Of a stretch of DNA of 64,000 nucleotides, positions 54,716 to 63,155 are shown in pieces; within the stretch, counting starts at the first letter, position 1; each line of letters opens with the position of its first letter. The stretch is taken from NCBI RefSeq assembly GCF_030063445.1, contig NZ_JASITD010000008.1:1-64000 (forward strand). Direction: 5' to 3'. The notes under the pieces are model-generated. The model made no database searches, was not told the origin of the DNA, and saw only the letters and a program-made list of their open reading frames with translations. A program made the translations under genes and the position numbers. The stretch is from Hymenobacter sp. H14-R3. GTDB taxonomy: Bacteria; Bacteroidota; Bacteroidia; Cytophagales; Hymenobacteraceae.

Positions 54716-55687
54716 ATGAAAAGAATATTACCGCTGCTGCTTTCGCTGCTATTCCTCGCCACCGTGCCGGCCCTGGCCCAGCAGCAGGCGCAGTACAGCC
54801 AGTACATGAACAACAATTACCTCCTCAACCCTGGCGCCACGGGCGTGGAGGACTACATTGACGTCAAGTTCAGCTACCGCACGCAGTGGGTGGGGCTGGA
54901 GGGGGCTCCCAAGACGTACTACGCCAGCATCAGCACCTCACTGGGCAAGTGGCGCAGCACGCCCAAGCGCACTATTCACGACCGGCGGCGGCCGTTTCAC
55001 GCGGTGGGTGGCCTCGTGTATAGCGACGTGACCGGGCCCACCAGCCGCACCAGCGCCTACGGCTCGTACGCCTACAACCTGGTGCTGACGCGCGACATCC
55101 GGCTGGCCCTGGGGGCGTCGGTGGGTATGCAGCAGTTTGCCGTCGATGGCGCACAGCTACGCTTCTTCGACCCCACCACGGTGGGGGCAAGCGCCGCCTC
55201 GCGGGTATTCGATGCTTCGGTGGGCCTGTGGCTGTACAGCGACAATTTCTACGTGGGGGTGTCGGGGGCGCAGCTACTGGGCAACAAGCTCGACTTTTCG
55301 TACGGGCCCGGGCAGCTGGGCGTGGGCGCGCCCGGCAACAGGCTGGCGCGCCACTACTTTGCCACGGCCGGGGTGCGCGTGCCGCTCAGCGAAGACTGGT
55401 CAGTGGTACCGTCGGTGCTGCTGAAGGCCGTGAGCCCGGCCCCGCTCTCGCTCGACGTCAACGCCAAGCTCAAGTACCGCGACCTGCTGTGGTTCGGGGC
55501 CTCGTGGCGCGCCTTCGACGCGGTGGTGGCCATGGCGGGCGTCAGCTACGAGCAGTTCACGCTGGGCTACTCCTACGATGCGGGCCTCTCAGAGCTGGCC
55601 GGCTACCACGGCGGCAGCCACGAAGTGCTGCTGGGCCTGCGCCTCAAGAAAAAAGCGCAGGTAGTCTGCACCAATCGGTTCTGGTAG
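54716..55687 (+). CDS. PorP/SprF-family type IX secretion membrane protein
   Basis: 323-aa outer-membrane beta-barrel protein. The signal MKRILPLLLSLLFLATVPAL ends near ALAQ. The family start AQYSQYMNNNYLLNPGATGV follows, then FSYRTQWVGLEGAPKTYYAS and alternating beta strands to the end, including YEQFTLGYSYDAG and GGSHEVLLGLRL. SprF-like proteins are encoded next to giant secreted proteins (SprB-SprF in Flavobacterium johnsoniae) and help to export or anchor them. Here the partner is the preceding repeat protein, 153 bases upstream. Confidence 0.93.
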   Translation: MKRILPLLLSLLFLATVPALAQQQAQYSQYMNNNYLLNPGATGVEDYIDVKFSYRTQWVGLEGAPKTYYASISTSLGKWRSTPKRTIHDRRRPFHAVGGLVYSDVTGPTSRTSAYGSYAYNLVLTRDIRLALGASVGMQQFAVDGAQLRFFDPTTVGASAASRVFDASVGLWLYSDNFYVGVSGAQLLGNKLDFSYGPGQLGVGAPGNRLARHYFATAGVRVPLSEDWSVVPSVLLKAVSPAPLSLDVNAKLKYRDLLWFGASWRAFDAVVAMAGVSYEQFTLGYSYDAGLSELAGYHGGSHEVLLGLRLKKKAQVVCTNRFW

Positions 55688-56742: not shown

Positions 56743-59700
56743 CTAAAACAGCGGCAGCTGGGCTTTGGGCCGCCGCAACAGCGCCTGCGACTGCGCCACT
56801 TCCTCGTCGGTAACTTTTACGTCGGCGGGAGGCAGGGTTTCGGCCGGCTCGGGAGCTTCGGCATCGCCTTCGGGCTTGGGGGTGCCGCGGCGCTTGGCTT
56901 CGCGGCGCACGGGCTCGGGGCCTTCGTCGGTGAGCAGAGCCAGGCCGTGGATTTTGAAGTAGTTAAGCTTGTTACCCATTGCCTTCCAGCCCTTTACCTC
57001 GATGAACTGGTCGAGGCGCAGCTTTTCCTTTTCCTTATCGGCTTTTTTGTCGCGTTGCAGCGTTACTTCTACCTCCGGCTCGGCAAAGGTGGTAGCAGCC
57101 AATAACTTAGAGCCCTTGCTTTCCGAAATGAACAGGAAGCGCTTTTCCATCGTCGTGGTTTCGATGTGGAACCGCTTGACGTAGTGCAGCTTAGACTCGC
57201 CATCGAGGTAGGCGGCGCTCACCACGGTATCGGGCTCCAGCTTGCGCAGCAGCACGATGTTGGGCACGTCGAAATGCGTGGCGGGCGAGGGCGGCGTGAG
57301 CTCATACGAGCCGTCGCGGTACACTACCAGCACCACGTGCTCGGTATCGAATGCGCCCAGGTAGCGGCCGTGGCCGGCGTGGTTGAGCTTGCCCACCACG
57401 CTGTCGAAAAACACTTCGCGGCCACCCAAAGTGCTGTCGCCCACCGACTTCTGGGTTATCTTCTTAATCAGCTGCTTGGTCACGATGTTGCCCATCGAGC
57501 CCTTGCCCTTAATGGCCAGTTCGGCAAAGTCAAACTCAAACTGCTTGACGCGCGCCGGGGCTTTATCGGCGAGCTGGATGGTCACCGTCTCGCTTTCCGA
57601 GTTGGGATTGGCCGTGAGGTACAGCGTTTTGGTGCCCTTGGTGCCCTTTGTGAGGTCGTACACCTTGTCGCGCGTGATGCCCGACACCAGGAAGCGCTTG
57701 GCAAAGCTGATGCCGCTCGCGCCGTCCACGTACACCATGTTGTACACCAGCCGGTCGTCGTTCTTGTTGTACACGCCGACTTGCAGAATGTCCTTGCCCA
57801 CGAAGGTTTTCTCGGCAATGCGCGTCACCACAAACGTGCCATCGCGCCGAATGGCGATGATGTCGTCCAGGTCCGAGCAGTCGCACACAAACTCGTCTTT
57901 CTTCAGGCCGTAGCCCACGAAGCCGTCCTGGCGATTCACGTAAAGCTTTTGGTTGGCCACCGCAACCTTCTGAGCCGTCACGATATCGAAGGTACGCAGC
58001 TGCGTTTTGCGCTCGCGGGTGGTCCCGTATTTTTTCAGCAGGTTTTCGAAGTAGGCCACCGCGTAGCGCGTGAGGTGCGCCAGGTGGTCAGCCACTTCGG
58101 CCAGCTCCACGTCGAGCTTCTGAATGTACTCCTCGGCCTTGAAGCCATCATATTTCGAGATGCGCTTGATGCGGATTTCGGTGAGGCGCGTCACGTCGTC
58201 CTCACTGATGGGGCGGCGCAGCACCAAGCGTACATCGTTGGTTTTCAGGCGCTCGCCTTCTACGCGCACAAATTTCTTGAGGCCCGCGTCGATGGTTTCC
58301 AGAATCTGCTCCCAGGTTTCGCACTCCTCAATTTTGCGGTAGATGCGGTTCTCGATAAAAATCTTTTCCAGCGAGGCCGAGTGCCACTTCTCTTGCAGCT
58401 CCCGCTGCCTGATTTCGAGCTCGCGCTCCAGCAGGCGGGCGGTTTTGCCGGTGCTCAGGCGCAGCATGTCCTCCACACCCACGAAGCGCGGCTTGTCGTC
58501 AATAATGACGCAGGTGTTGGGCGAAATCGAGATTTCGCAGTCCGTGAAGGCGTAGAGCGCGTCGATGGTGAGGTCGGGGCTGATGCCGGGCGGCAGCTGC
58601 ACCTGAATCTCGACCTCGGCGGCGGTGTTGTCCACCACCTTCTTAATCTTGATTTTGTTGGCTTCGCTGGCCTTCACAATGCTCTCCATCAGCGCCGTAG
58701 TGGTGGTACCGTACGGAATATCGCGGATGATGAGCAGCGTCTTATCAATCTTCTCGATGGTGGCCCGCAGCCGGATTTTGCCGCCCCGCTGCCCGTTCTG
58801 GTAGTTGCTGATGTCGGCCAGGCCGCCGGTCGGGAAGTCGGGAAACAGCTGAAAATCACGTCCTTTCAGCACCGCAATGCTGGCCTGGCACAGCTCGCGG
58901 AAGTTGTGGGGCATAATCTTGGTGCTCAGGCCCACGGCAATGCCTTCCACGCCTTGCGCCAGCAGCAGCGGGAACTTCACGGGCAGCGTAGTGGGCTCGC
59001 GCTTGCGGCCGTCGTAGCTCATCTGCCAGTCGGTGATGTCGGGGTTGAACACCACTTCGAGGGCAAACTTGCTGAGGCGGGCCTCGATGTAGCGCGGCGC
59101 GGCGGCCGAGTCGCCGGTGGCCACGTTGCCCCAGTTGCCCTGGGTTTCAATCAGCAAATCCTTCTGGCCCAGGTTCACCATGGCGTCGCCGATGCTGGCG
59201 TCGCCGTGGGGGTGGTACTGCATGGTTTGCCCAATCACGTTGGCCACCTTGTTGAAGCGGCCATCGTCCATCTCGTTCATCGCGTGCAAGATGCGGCGCT
59301 GCACGGGCTTGAGGCCGTCTTCCACGGCGGGCACGGCGCGTTCCAGAATCACGTAGCTGGCGTAGTCCAGAAACCAGTTCTGGTACATGCCGCGCACGTT
59401 GTTCACGTCGTGAATCACCTCGCCGGGGGCAAATTTGGCTTCTTCCTCTACCGTTGCTGCCATTTCCTCTTCGGCCGCTTCGCCGGGCGAGTTGGGCTCG
59501 GCTTCATCAGCCACCACTGCGGCGGCGGCGGCCTGCTCGCTGGTTTCCCCAGGCAGCGAGTGCGTTGCGTCGGCGGCCGGGGTTGCATCGGCCGCGCCCA
59601 GGCCCGGGCGGGCGGCACTCAGGTCAAAATCCAGCGAATCACCCGGTGTCAGGTAGTCAGGTTTGGGGTCGTCGAAGGAAGGAGTATCAGAAATAGCCAC
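56743..59700 (-). CDS. parC: DNA topoisomerase IV subunit A
   Basis: 985 aa from GTG 59700. The DNA-breaking core begins NVRGMYQNWFLDYASYVILE (about residue 101). The QYHPHGDASIGDAMV block follows, and the active-site Tyr is Y204 in SAAAPRYIEAR. A coiled-coil segment and a C-terminal blade region come next (GKGSMGNIVTKQLIKKI). Before the core lies an extra acidic, Ala/Glu-rich tail of about 100 residues, and another lies at the C-terminus. The in-frame ATG at 59766 is rejected because an exact promoter box (59740-59733) lies between it and the core. parE is 1.5 kb upstream on the same strand, which favours topoisomerase IV over gyrase. Confidence 0.88.
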   Translation of the reverse strand: MAISDTPSFDDPKPDYLTPGDSLDFDLSAARPGLGAADATPAADATHSLPGETSEQAAAAAVVADEAEPNSPGEAAEEEMAATVEEEAKFAPGEVIHDVNNVRGMYQNWFLDYASYVILERAVPAVEDGLKPVQRRILHAMNEMDDGRFNKVANVIGQTMQYHPHGDASIGDAMVNLGQKDLLIETQGNWGNVATGDSAAAPRYIEARLSKFALEVVFNPDITDWQMSYDGRKREPTTLPVKFPLLLAQGVEGIAVGLSTKIMPHNFRELCQASIAVLKGRDFQLFPDFPTGGLADISNYQNGQRGGKIRLRATIEKIDKTLLIIRDIPYGTTTTALMESIVKASEANKIKIKKVVDNTAAEVEIQVQLPPGISPDLTIDALYAFTDCEISISPNTCVIIDDKPRFVGVEDMLRLSTGKTARLLERELEIRQRELQEKWHSASLEKIFIENRIYRKIEECETWEQILETIDAGLKKFVRVEGERLKTNDVRLVLRRPISEDDVTRLTEIRIKRISKYDGFKAEEYIQKLDVELAEVADHLAHLTRYAVAYFENLLKKYGTTRERKTQLRTFDIVTAQKVAVANQKLYVNRQDGFVGYGLKKDEFVCDCSDLDDIIAIRRDGTFVVTRIAEKTFVGKDILQVGVYNKNDDRLVYNMVYVDGASGISFAKRFLVSGITRDKVYDLTKGTKGTKTLYLTANPNSESETVTIQLADKAPARVKQFEFDFAELAIKGKGSMGNIVTKQLIKKITQKSVGDSTLGGREVFFDSVVGKLNHAGHGRYLGAFDTEHVVLVVYRDGSYELTPPSPATHFDVPNIVLLRKLEPDTVVSAAYLDGESKLHYVKRFHIETTTMEKRFLFISESKGSKLLAATTFAEPEVEVTLQRDKKADKEKEKLRLDQFIEVKGWKAMGNKLNYFKIHGLALLTDEGPEPVRREAKRRGTPKPEGDAEAPEPAETLPPADVKVTDEEVAQSQALLRRPKAQLPLF

Positions 59701-59732
59701 AGAAAAGAATCTTAAAACCGGCGAATTGCCGT

Positions 59733-59740
59733 CAAAAGTA
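59733..59740 (-). promoter_or_regulatory. -7 promoter box for parC
   Basis: On the minus strand it reads TACTTTTG, an exact TAnnTTTG. Transcription would start near 59726, about 25 bases before GTG 59700, which supports that start. A TTTG lies upstream, but at 15 bases. Confidence 0.55.
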
Positions 59741-60089
59741 CCGTAAAAATTGGGGCAAAGCACCATTTCTGCAAGCTTTGTGCACGGCCAAAAGTTCCCA
59801 GCGTTTTTAGCCAGCAGCCCCGCCGACCTGGCTAATTTCATTAGCCTGTAAGGTTAAGCTGCTGCTACCCTAGTTGTCTGCCAGGCTAAGGCCTTTGGTA
59901 ATTTATGCCGGATGCGGCCACTGCGCCCCACTAGATTAACTCAGTCGATACCGGAATTGAGCGAGGAATAATAACCACTCGGCTAGTTTGTGGTGCTTGG
60001 CTGTTGCGCCTGCCTCCTGCTCGCCCATATCTTGCGGCGTATTAGGCAGCAGCTGATAATTAGTATATCATGCCCAACGCTATGCCGTT

Positions 60090-60545
60090 TTGCCCCCGAA
60101 AAACCTGCCTACTTTGCGCATTCGCTTTCTCCGCTACAGTTGGGCTTTGCCCTTCGTAGCCATTCTACTGTGGGCCAATTGGGAAGCACCTGAGATGCAC
60201 CACTTCGTGCGGCCCGTTGAAATGACGGTTTGGCAATTGGCCCCGCTGGCCGGCCCGGCTGCGGCCCAGGCACTGGCTATCCAGCTGGCCACCGAGCCGG
60301 GCGTATCGGCCTGTTCCGTGAGCCCCCGCACCAATTGCGTGGCCTTTGTCTACCACCCCGGCGAGGCTTCCCTGCCAGCCCTTTACCAGGCTGTGGGCCG
60401 CCACGGGGCCCGCGTAATAACCAACCCGCCCGCCCCGGCGGCGGCCCCCGCCGTGCGCCAGTGCCCGGTGCCGGCCGGCTACATCGCCTTGCTGGACCAG
60501 GTTCGGTTTACGCTCAATCTGCGCCGGTTTTTTGTATCGGCTTAG
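60090..60545 (+). CDS. Small membrane-anchored protein with an HMA-like domain
   Basis: Up to 151 aa. The start is uncertain (TTG 60090 or TTG 60114; no ATG before residue 36). A hydrophobic anchor lies at about 17-30 (WALPFVAILLWANW). Residues 45-110 have the beta-alpha-beta pattern of heavy-metal-associated domains (IQLATEPGVSACSVSPRTNC, VAFVYHPGEASLPALYQAVG), but without the CxxC metal motif. The C-terminal 40 residues are Pro/Ala-rich. A truncated-haemoglobin lipoprotein gene follows 124 bases later on the same strand. Metal binding is doubtful. Confidence 0.6.
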   Translation: MPPKNLPTLRIRFLRYSWALPFVAILLWANWEAPEMHHFVRPVEMTVWQLAPLAGPAAAQALAIQLATEPGVSACSVSPRTNCVAFVYHPGEASLPALYQAVGRHGARVITNPPAPAAAPAVRQCPVPAGYIALLDQVRFTLNLRRFFVSA

Positions 60546-60668
60546 CGCTGGCTAGCCGCACTACCACCCATCTATCAGCCAGGGACATTTCCACTACCGG
60601 CCGGGCCGGGCTGGCCGGTAGTGGCCACGTCCTGCTTTTTTACCCCCTTTCCCCCTTCACCTTTTTTT

Positions 60669-61178
60669 ATGTTCAAACCTCAACTCCCTGTTGCCAGCGC
60701 TTTCGTGCTGGGCCTTGCTTTGCTCACCACAGCCTGCGGCTCAAAAGACTCCGCCGCGCCAACTTCCCTCTACGACCGCATGGGCGGCAAAACCGGCATC
60801 GAAAGCGTGACCGACCAGCTGGTGGCCAACGTAGGGGCCGAAGCCGGTCAGGCGTCTTCGGTTATGGTGCGCTCGCACAAGCCAATGCTCGATGCCATTG
60901 GCAGCCAGAACGGGCAGCCAGCCACCGACCCCACCCGCTTGCAGCGCCTGCGCAACAACGTGGTAGACCAGTTTACGGATATTACCGGCGGCCCCATCAA
61001 GTACAAGGGCCAATCGATGCTGGTAGCCCATACCAACATGAAGGTAACCAATGCTGAGTACAATGCCTGGCGCGCATTACTAGATAACTCATTGGCTACC
61101 AATAAGATTGGGGCTACTGAGAAAAAGGAATTTGCGATTCTGGTTGACGCCATGAGAAACGACGTGGTGAACCACTAG
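60669..61178 (+). CDS. Truncated haemoglobin-like lipoprotein (group 1)
   Basis: 169 aa. A lipoprotein signal ends LALLTTAC with lipid cysteine C23, so the globin is anchored in a membrane and faces the periplasm or outside. The globin part starts SLYDRMGGKTGIESVTDQLV, and the later block ITGGPIKYKGQSMLVAHTNM holds the expected proximal haem ligand H121. The pattern matches group 1 truncated haemoglobins. Cytoplasmic forms bind O2 or NO, and an exported lipid-linked form is unusual. The start at 60669 gives the clean signal, and the upstream start at 60621 does not. It shares its terminator with parE. Confidence 0.8.
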   Translation: MFKPQLPVASAFVLGLALLTTACGSKDSAAPTSLYDRMGGKTGIESVTDQLVANVGAEAGQASSVMVRSHKPMLDAIGSQNGQPATDPTRLQRLRNNVVDQFTDITGGPIKYKGQSMLVAHTNMKVTNAEYNAWRALLDNSLATNKIGATEKKEFAILVDAMRNDVVNH

Positions 61179-61191
61179 CCGGATATTAACC

Positions 61192-61235
61192 AAACAAAAG
61201 ACCCGGCTGAACTAGCTCAGCCGGGTCTTTTGTTT
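61192..61235. terminator. Bidirectional intrinsic terminator
   Basis: AAACAAAAGACCCGGCTGA pairs exactly with TCAGCCGGGTCTTTTGTTT around ACTAGC. It serves the globin gene (plus) and parE (minus, stop at 61245). Confidence 0.93.
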
Positions 61236-61244
61236 ACTCGTCGA

Positions 61245-63155
61245 CTACGCCAAGGCAATCTCGGGTACCGGCAGCACGTCGCTGGTCACCAGGTCTTTTT
61301 CCAGGCGCAGGTTATCAATGATAAACTCCTGGCGGGCGGGCGTATTCTTACCCATGTAATAGGCCAGCACCTGCTGAATGCTGCGGTCCGATTGCAGAAT
61401 GACCGGCTCCAGCTTGATGTTTTCGCCGATGAACTTGCCAAACTCGTCGGGCGAGATTTCGCCCAGGCCCTTAAAGCGCGTCACCTCGGGGTTGCGGCCC
61501 AGTTTGCGCATGGCGTCCTGCTTTTCGCTCTCGTTGTAGCAGTAAATGGTTTCCTTCTTGTTGCGCACCCGAAACAGCGGCGTTTCCAGGATGTACACGT
61601 GGCCGTTGCGCACTAGGTCGGGGAAAAACTGGAGGAAGAACGTGAGCAGCAGCAGCCGAATGTGCATGCCGTCCACGTCGGCGTCGGTGGCCACTACCAC
61701 GCGGTTGTAGCGCAGGCCTTCGAGGCCTTCCTCAATGTTGAGCGCGTGCTGAAGCAGGTTAAACTCCTCGTTCTCGTACACAATCTTCTTCTTGAGGCCG
61801 AAGCAGTTGAGTGGCTTGCCGCGCAGGCTAAACACGGCTTCCAGCTCCACGTTGCGGCTCTTGGTGATGCTGCCGCTGGCCGAGTCGCCCTCCGTGATGA
61901 AGAGCGTGGTGAGGGGCTCCTTTTCGGCCCCGTCCTTGGCATTTTCGCCCAGGTGGAAGCGGCAATCCCGTAGTTTACGATTGTGCAGGTTGGCCTTTTT
62001 GGCGCGCTGGTTGGCCAGCTTTTTCACGCCGGCCATGTCCTTGCGCTCCCGCTCGCTCTGCATAATGCGCTTGAGCAGACCCTCGGCCACCAAAGGGTTC
62101 TTGTGCAGATAGTTATCGAGGTTTTCCTTGACAAAATCGAGGATGAAGCCGCGCACCGTGGGGCCGTCGGGGCCCATGTTGATGCTACCCAGCTTGGTCT
62201 TGGTCTGGCTCTCAAACACGGGCTCCTGCACCCGGATGGAAATGGCCCCGATGATGGAGCCCCGGATGTCGGCCGCGTCAAATTCCTTCTTATAAAATTC
62301 GCGCACGGTCTTCACCACGGCTTCGCGGAACGCGGCTAAGTGCGTGCCACCCTGCGTGGTATACTGGCCGTTCACAAACGAATAGTACTCCTCACCGTAG
62401 TCGTTGCCGTGGGTGAGGGCAATTTCGATGTCCTCGCCCTTCAGCTGAATAATGGGGTAGCGCAGGCTGTCGGGGTCGGTTTTATGCTCCAGCAGGTCAC
62501 GTAAGCCGTTATCTGACACGAACTTCTGGCCGTTGAAGTAGATGGCCAGGCCAGCGTTGAGGTAGCAGTAGTAGCGAATCTGGTTTTCGAGGTACTCCGG
62601 GATGAAGCGGTAATTCTTGAAAATGGTCTCGTCGGGCTGGAAGGTGATGAGCGTGCCGTTGCGCTGGCTGGTTTTGGTGGGGGCCGGGTCATTCACCAGC
62701 TGCCCCTGCGAAAACTCCGCCGCCTTCATGGTGCCCTCGCGCACGCTCTGCACTACAAAGCTGCTGCTGAGGGCATTAACGGCCTTGGTACCCACGCCGT
62801 TGAGACCCACCGACTTCTGAAAAACCTTGCTGTCGTACTTGCCGCCGGTGTTGATTTTGCTCACCACGTCCACCACTTTGCCCAGCGGAATACCCCGGCC
62901 GTAGTCACGCACCTGCACCCGGCTCTCCGAAATCTTGATTTCGATGGTGCGGCCGTAGCCCATCACGTGCTCATCTATACAGTTGTCAATCACCTCTTTA
63001 ACGAGCACATAGATGCCGTCGTCGTAGGCCGAGCCGTCGCCCAGCTTACCGATGTACATACCCGGCCGCAGGCGAATGTGCTCGCGCCAGTCGAGCGAGC
63101 GAATACTGTCTTCGTTGTAATTATGGGCGGGGGCGGCAGGTTGGGTAGCACTCAT
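61245..63155 (-). CDS. parE: DNA topoisomerase IV subunit B
   Basis: 636-aa ATPase subunit. The GHKL ATP-binding domain has [36 protein letters not shown] and the GRGIPLGKV and [14 protein letters not shown] loops. The transducer region follows. The Toprim domain has [13 protein letters not shown] and [20 protein letters not shown], and the C-terminal part ends with [16 protein letters not shown]. It lacks the extra insert of gyrase B and its length fits ParE. It is transcribed towards parC, but two opposite-strand genes lie between them. Confidence 0.92.

Follow-up and report, generated by a model that had tools for sequence, protein, structure and literature searches.

The window, a stretch of 64,000 nucleotides from Hymenobacter sp. 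H14-R3 (positions 1 to 64,000 of contig NZ_JASITD010000008.1), carries two plus-strand genes between parC (56743-59841) and parE (61245-63155), which are both on the minus strand. The first of the two (60090-60545) codes for a protein of 151 residues, predicted to be a membrane-anchored HMA-fold protein without CxxC and referred to here as the partner, and the second (60669-61178) for a lipoprotein group 1 truncated haemoglobin of 169 residues with an ATG start. A sequence-only reading of this DNA had placed the two genes here and had described them as splitting the topoisomerase IV pair, and both statements hold. The parE gene is convergent with the globin gene, and the gap between them contains a candidate terminator-like bidirectional hairpin with a perfect 15-bp inverted repeat and A and T runs (61196-61231), which was found by eye and is absent from the output of the automated scan. 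The window also has a gene for a PorP/SprF type IX secretion membrane protein at 54716-55687.

The globin matches PF01152 with 40.3 bits (cut-off 21) and its AlphaFold2 model shows the two-on-two globin fold (pLDDT 79.5), with group 1 truncated haemoglobins as the top PDB matches and a truncated haemoglobin of Shewanella benthica in first place. It belongs to a known kind of protein, and its public annotation is 'group 1 truncated hemoglobin'. The lipoprotein signal peptide (60669-60737) ends in LTTA/C with Cys23 (codon 60735-60737) as the acceptor, an assignment made by pattern and by eye and not by a signal-peptide program, while His121 (61029-61031) aligns with the proximal haem ligand F8 of solved truncated haemoglobins and is predicted to have the same role; the clear lipobox and the haem histidine of the sequence-only reading are thereby confirmed. 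The window's genome has a second globin-like gene without signal peptide near cytochrome c genes (L002 1462-1869; G000 C7:32252-32542).

The partner is annotated as 'hypothetical protein'; searched alone, it has no Pfam match above the cut-off, and neither Pfam nor NCBIfam offers a model dedicated to its family. As read it begins with TTG, and this start is uncertain. The family profile does match the HMA domains of Cu-ATPases (1p6t, E 2.8e-19), and the AlphaFold2 model (mean pLDDT 78.6) consists of a transmembrane helix at residues 7-31 (60108-60182), also predicted from hydropathy, an HMA fold at residues 44-111 (60219-60422) and a tail helix at residues 129-142, with the HMA domains of CopA and CopZ as the closest structures. 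The input alignments of the two AlphaFold2 models had 15 and 14 rows, and the signal, the tail and the Cys-Pro loop are of low confidence. The HMA fold normally binds metal ions; according to the alignments the CxxC metal site is replaced by G55..A58 in the partner, which agrees with the earlier description of a metal-domain fold lacking this motif.

What the partner family has kept instead is a Cys-Pro, the sole motif present throughout (alignments A4 and A7), which in the window is Cys125-Pro126 (60462-60467) and is invariant in 14 of 14 rows of A4. The family has two distant subfamilies that align with 96.6% probability (E 5.6e-10), and each of them has an invariant His where the membrane helix ends on the outer side; in the window this is the juxtamembrane His37 (60198-60200), which aligns with H28 of the distant subfamily. 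Cys75 is a second invariant Cys in the window's subfamily and is not kept in the distant one, where Cys-Pro is the only Cys of several members, and a disulfide is therefore not the common function of the partner. The charge N-terminal to the helix is positive in most members, which fits a C-terminal part that would lie outside.

Comparison with 18 other parE loci (L309-L326) showed that parC is present in the stretch and the pair not matched at eight of them. At six (L312, L313, L316, L318, L319 and L324) parC nearly abuts parE, the gap in L321 has a different gene, and that in L311 (1-1495, Hymenobacter) has a CHRD lipoprotein gene together with broken, frame-shifted globin-like pieces resembling the L086/L088-type globin. 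The other ten have no parC in the stretch and are not decisive, among them L309, which is from the same genome as L065, where the pair is present. We find the pair between parE and parC in the window's clade (L063, L064 and L065) and in a second clade (L086 and L088), while in L089 parE alone was seen at its flank. A functional tie to topoisomerase IV was rejected, given that parE/parC is one of several sites and most relatives carry the pair elsewhere; its position here is incidental.

The globin surveys gave matches in 31 of 120 genomes of the genus, 33 of 291 of the order and 25 of 395 of the phylum, and pooled without double counting the three comprise 78 globin loci. At 56 of these the partner is adjacent and on the same strand, so the case that would have counted against the sequence-only reading, that the two genes never co-occur in other genomes, does not hold. 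Counted by sample, adjacency was seen in 29/31, 20/33 and 17/25 of the globin-positive genomes of genus, order and phylum, on which grounds chance neighbours were rejected, and in the order sample one set of 13 genomes accounts for the strong full-length partner matches and for the strong globin matches alike. Model A4 of the partner was built in part from L202-L206 and several Hymenobacter-type loci, the matches of which are not independent; the independent ones (L233-L249 and L255-L256) have E values between 3e-13 and 2e-36. Where a partner match fell in a frame of at least 700 residues, it resembled an HMA domain of a P-type ATPase and was left out of the count. The pairing persists through relocation to other sites, and adjacency is kept even in two genomes where the gene order is swapped (L194 and L195). 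A search limited to open-licence papers found no literature on the pair.

The unpaired remainder consists nearly entirely of globins without lipobox. A lipobox Cys is present in 55 of the 56 paired globins (the exception is decayed) and in none of the 22 unpaired ones, where seven entries (L067, L068, L071, L089, L234, L235 and L238) were assigned by eye from aligned N-termini; Fisher's test gives p 1.6e-18 but ignores relatedness, and the globin tree needs four label changes. Export alone does not require a partner, because no HMA-like one accompanies several truncated haemoglobins (L237, L239, L245, L246 and L250-L252) that look exported and have a signal peptide of the ordinary kind without lipobox. 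Surface export was judged by a C-X-K-(D/E)2 or similar acidic stretch. After Cys23 the window globin continues with GSKDSAA (CGSKDSAA), which with its one acidic residue has less than the K-(D/E)2 export signal asks for, whereas many relatives do have an acidic stretch there (positions +2 to +8 of 55 paired globins contain 2.4 acidic residues on average). The location at the cell surface proposed by the sequence-only reading is consequently weakly supported, and surface exposure of the window globin is uncertain.

Some loci depart from the general pattern. Both genes are decayed in L078 (H. elongatus), where the globin is truncated and its lipobox Cys is lost together with both partner Cys, including that of the Cys-Pro; in L089 (H. 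coccineus) the globin is intact and the partner next to it is broken, which counts against delivery of haem by the partner. In L091 the globin is truncated and stands without a partner, in L092 it has neither signal nor partner, and L106 has a partner match of 51.5 bits in a genome with no strong globin. Moreover, the trees of partner and globin conflict on the L086/L088 clade: its grouping with the window's clade and L066 has support 95/92 in the partner tree and is rejected by the globin data (p-AU 0.0075), while the reverse test is marginal (0.049) and both trees carry long-branch warnings. This conflict suggests that partners may have been exchanged between lineages.

Genes for haem synthesis recur beside the pair. 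By tblastn, hemA or its C-terminal piece was found at 16 of the 56 paired loci compared to none of the 22 unpaired; ten of these are full-length or nearly so (L066, L203, L205, L238, L241, L243, L244, L247, L248 and L249), and the other six, in Hymenobacter, are C-terminal matches alone directly after the globin gene (L067, L068, L069, L072, L073 and L074), corresponding to the dimerisation part of glutamyl-tRNA reductase, with that of L069 being an open frame of 100 residues with PF00745. The orientation of hemA varies: most loci have it downstream, and L203 and L205 have it divergent. L243 has, in this order, ferrochelatase (hemH), AraC-type regulator, partner, globin, hemA, hemC, hemD and hemE; hemH lies two genes before the partner in L199 and L200, and in H. 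volaticus a plasmid-borne hemA comes after the globin. No hemA match was found in the stretch examined at 40 of the 56 paired loci, that of the window included; in the window's genome full-length hemA occurs three times, each time on a contig other than that of the pair (C28:17203-18453, C33:14235-15494 and C29:25605-26852). A second copy elsewhere is also present in H. volaticus and in the genome of L203, and in part of the loci hemA may be an ordinary copy whose site the pair joined. In a scan of 95 neighbours glutamyl-tRNA reductase came out on top, level with the ECF sigma and RskA-type anti-sigma families. RskA-type anti-sigma genes lie at most three genes from the pair in L196, L234, L235, L240 and L249, some with an ECF sigma gene.

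Many pairs sit in a cytochrome c-YceI-DUF5777 operon. In other Hymenobacter the pair forms the end of such an operon, in the order lipoprotein cytochrome c, YceI, DUF5777 beta-barrel, sometimes a CHRD lipoprotein, partner and globin, and in H. volaticus this operon is carried by a 160-kb plasmid and can therefore move. A cassette specific to the pair was rejected, as DUF5777 is present in 141 of 365 phylum genomes and the cytochrome c-YceI-DUF5777 genes of the window's genome are on another contig. The cytochrome c-YceI-DUF5777 cassette itself (L265-L307) is widespread in Bacteroidota; we found no open-licence paper that names DUF5777.

The pairing, the lipobox, the conserved residues and the association with haem genes and with the cytochrome c operon are all features of the genomes as read, and the side-by-side genes in many distantly related Bacteroidota, often near haem-making genes, point to an undescribed extracytoplasmic haem-handling system. 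The reading we prefer, with a probability of roughly 0.4, is that the pair works as one extracytoplasmic module that handles haem b, with the partner passing haem on to the exported globin. We consider it the best reading because of the conserved His and Cys-Pro, the tie to lipoprotein globins alone and the haem-synthesis neighbours in several families. Against it stand the 40 paired loci with no hemA match in the stretch examined, the exported globins that do without such a partner and the metal ions that an HMA fold usually binds.

Among the alternatives, the pair might sense haem, oxygen or peroxide in the envelope, with the globin as the sensor and the membrane protein passing the signal on, either to haem synthesis or to an ECF sigma factor. 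The hemA and hemH neighbours, the AraC regulator in L243 and the anti-sigma genes listed above would suit such a function, but the regulators vary by lineage, the stretch of the partner before its helix is short (about six residues in the window) and its model has no cytoplasmic signalling domain, and we regard sensing as improbable. To the same degree we doubt a role of the partner in copper or thiol-redox chemistry, by which it would hold the globin in the reduced state or provide a metal, in the way of HMA and Sco-like proteins: its HMA ancestry, the conserved Cys and His and the additional Cys75 of the window's subfamily are what such a role would call for, yet CxxC is lost, Cys75 is confined to that subfamily with Cys-Pro as the only Cys of several distant members, and no copper gene is prominent among the 25 neighbour families shown. 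Rather less probable is a mere folding or anchoring helper for the exported globin that binds neither haem nor metal, which would account for the strict pairing with lipoprotein globins and leaves both the invariant Cys-Pro and His and the haem-gene neighbours unexplained.

The last alternative concerns the distal side of the haem. While F8 is His in all 56 paired globins, B10 is Ile in 32, Val in 9, Met in 9, Leu in 5 and Gly in 1, E11 is Leu, Phe or Val, and CD1 is Phe in 30 and His in 26. In the window globin, Val52 (B10; 60822-60824), Leu94 (E7) and Val98 (E11) are all hydrophobic, and CD1 is His70 (60876-60878). TyrB10 is reported for 80% of truncated haemoglobins in the part of Bustamante and others that we draw on (PMC4720485), and NO-dioxygenating TrHbN is recognised by TyrB10 and GlnE11, a combination that Val52 and Val98 do not provide. 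Hydrophobic residues at B10, E7 and E11, as found here, characterise TrHbN-2, for which a low O2 affinity is expected according to the portion of PMC11904497 used here. From B10 and E11, the paired globins therefore fit TrHbN-2 and not NO dioxygenation, and an envelope NO dioxygenase or O2 store with the partner as accessory, for which the group 1 truncated haemoglobin fold speaks, is the least probable of the alternatives, as TyrB10 is absent in 56 of 56 and there is no known reductase here to serve the NO reaction. The sequence-only reading had proposed handling of NO, O2 or haem and is as a whole partly supported: haem gains from the hemA, hemCDE and ferrochelatase neighbours, and NO dioxygenation is disfavoured.

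Returning to delivery of haem by the partner, we infer the topology, the binding of haem by either protein, its transfer and the final chemistry as follows. Sec would export the globin, which would receive a lipid at Cys23 and stay anchored in the envelope, and since it would leave the cytoplasm unfolded it would have to acquire its haem outside. The partner would be fixed to the inner membrane, its HMA-fold domain and its Cys-Pro tail both lying in the periplasm, and would hand haem to the globin, probably by means of the thiolate at Cys-Pro and the juxtamembrane His. Once loaded, the globin with its hydrophobic distal pocket would be an envelope haem protein for ligand, peroxide or redox chemistry, and in many species may act beside the lipoprotein cytochrome c. 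A fuller version, that the partners are membrane-tethered, HMA-derived haem chaperones of an undescribed Bacteroidota family which load haem b onto a dedicated exported lipoprotein globin, and that this globin is a haem carrier or an enzyme of the cell envelope, is offered tentatively and is in its entirety doubtful.

Parts of this putative system resemble proteins that are known. SbHbN of Shewanella benthica, a TrHbN-2 (PDB 8ugz, 8tls and 7tt9), is the best match to the window globin in both sequence and fold, and as far as the consulted part of PMC11904497 describes it, the two share His F8, hydrophobic B10, E7 and E11 and an unusual CD1 (Tyr in SbHbN, His here); the window globin differs in having an N-terminal lipoprotein signal, a longer CD-E region and an obligate membrane partner. 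In cable bacteria, fusions of a pentahaem cytochrome with truncated haemoglobin bring c-type haem and a truncated haemoglobin domain together in the periplasm (PMC11976967, in the part drawn on), in contrast to the separate proteins, single CxxCH cytochrome c and HMA-like partner seen here. Cys-Pro is a known haem-binding motif, the haem regulatory motif, and the invariant Cys-Pro of the partner, which in sequence and model appears to lie in a flexible loop before a helix, may be akin to it; the examples given in the part of PMC10377097 consulted are mammalian. The likeness of the partner to the HMA domains of CopA and CopZ (PDB 1p6t and 2qif) is one of fold and profile, and it differs from them in the lack of CxxC and in its membrane anchor, juxtamembrane His and Cys-Pro tail.

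To our knowledge, how bacteria insert haem b into proteins that are exported unfolded through Sec is poorly understood, and a strictly paired gene set recurring beside hemA and ferrochelatase offers a small, testable system for this step. If the proposed delivery of haem is true, it would assign a function to a protein annotated as hypothetical. The HMA fold, deprived of its metal site, would then have a second use, with a scaffold of metal chaperones now serving to chaperone haem.
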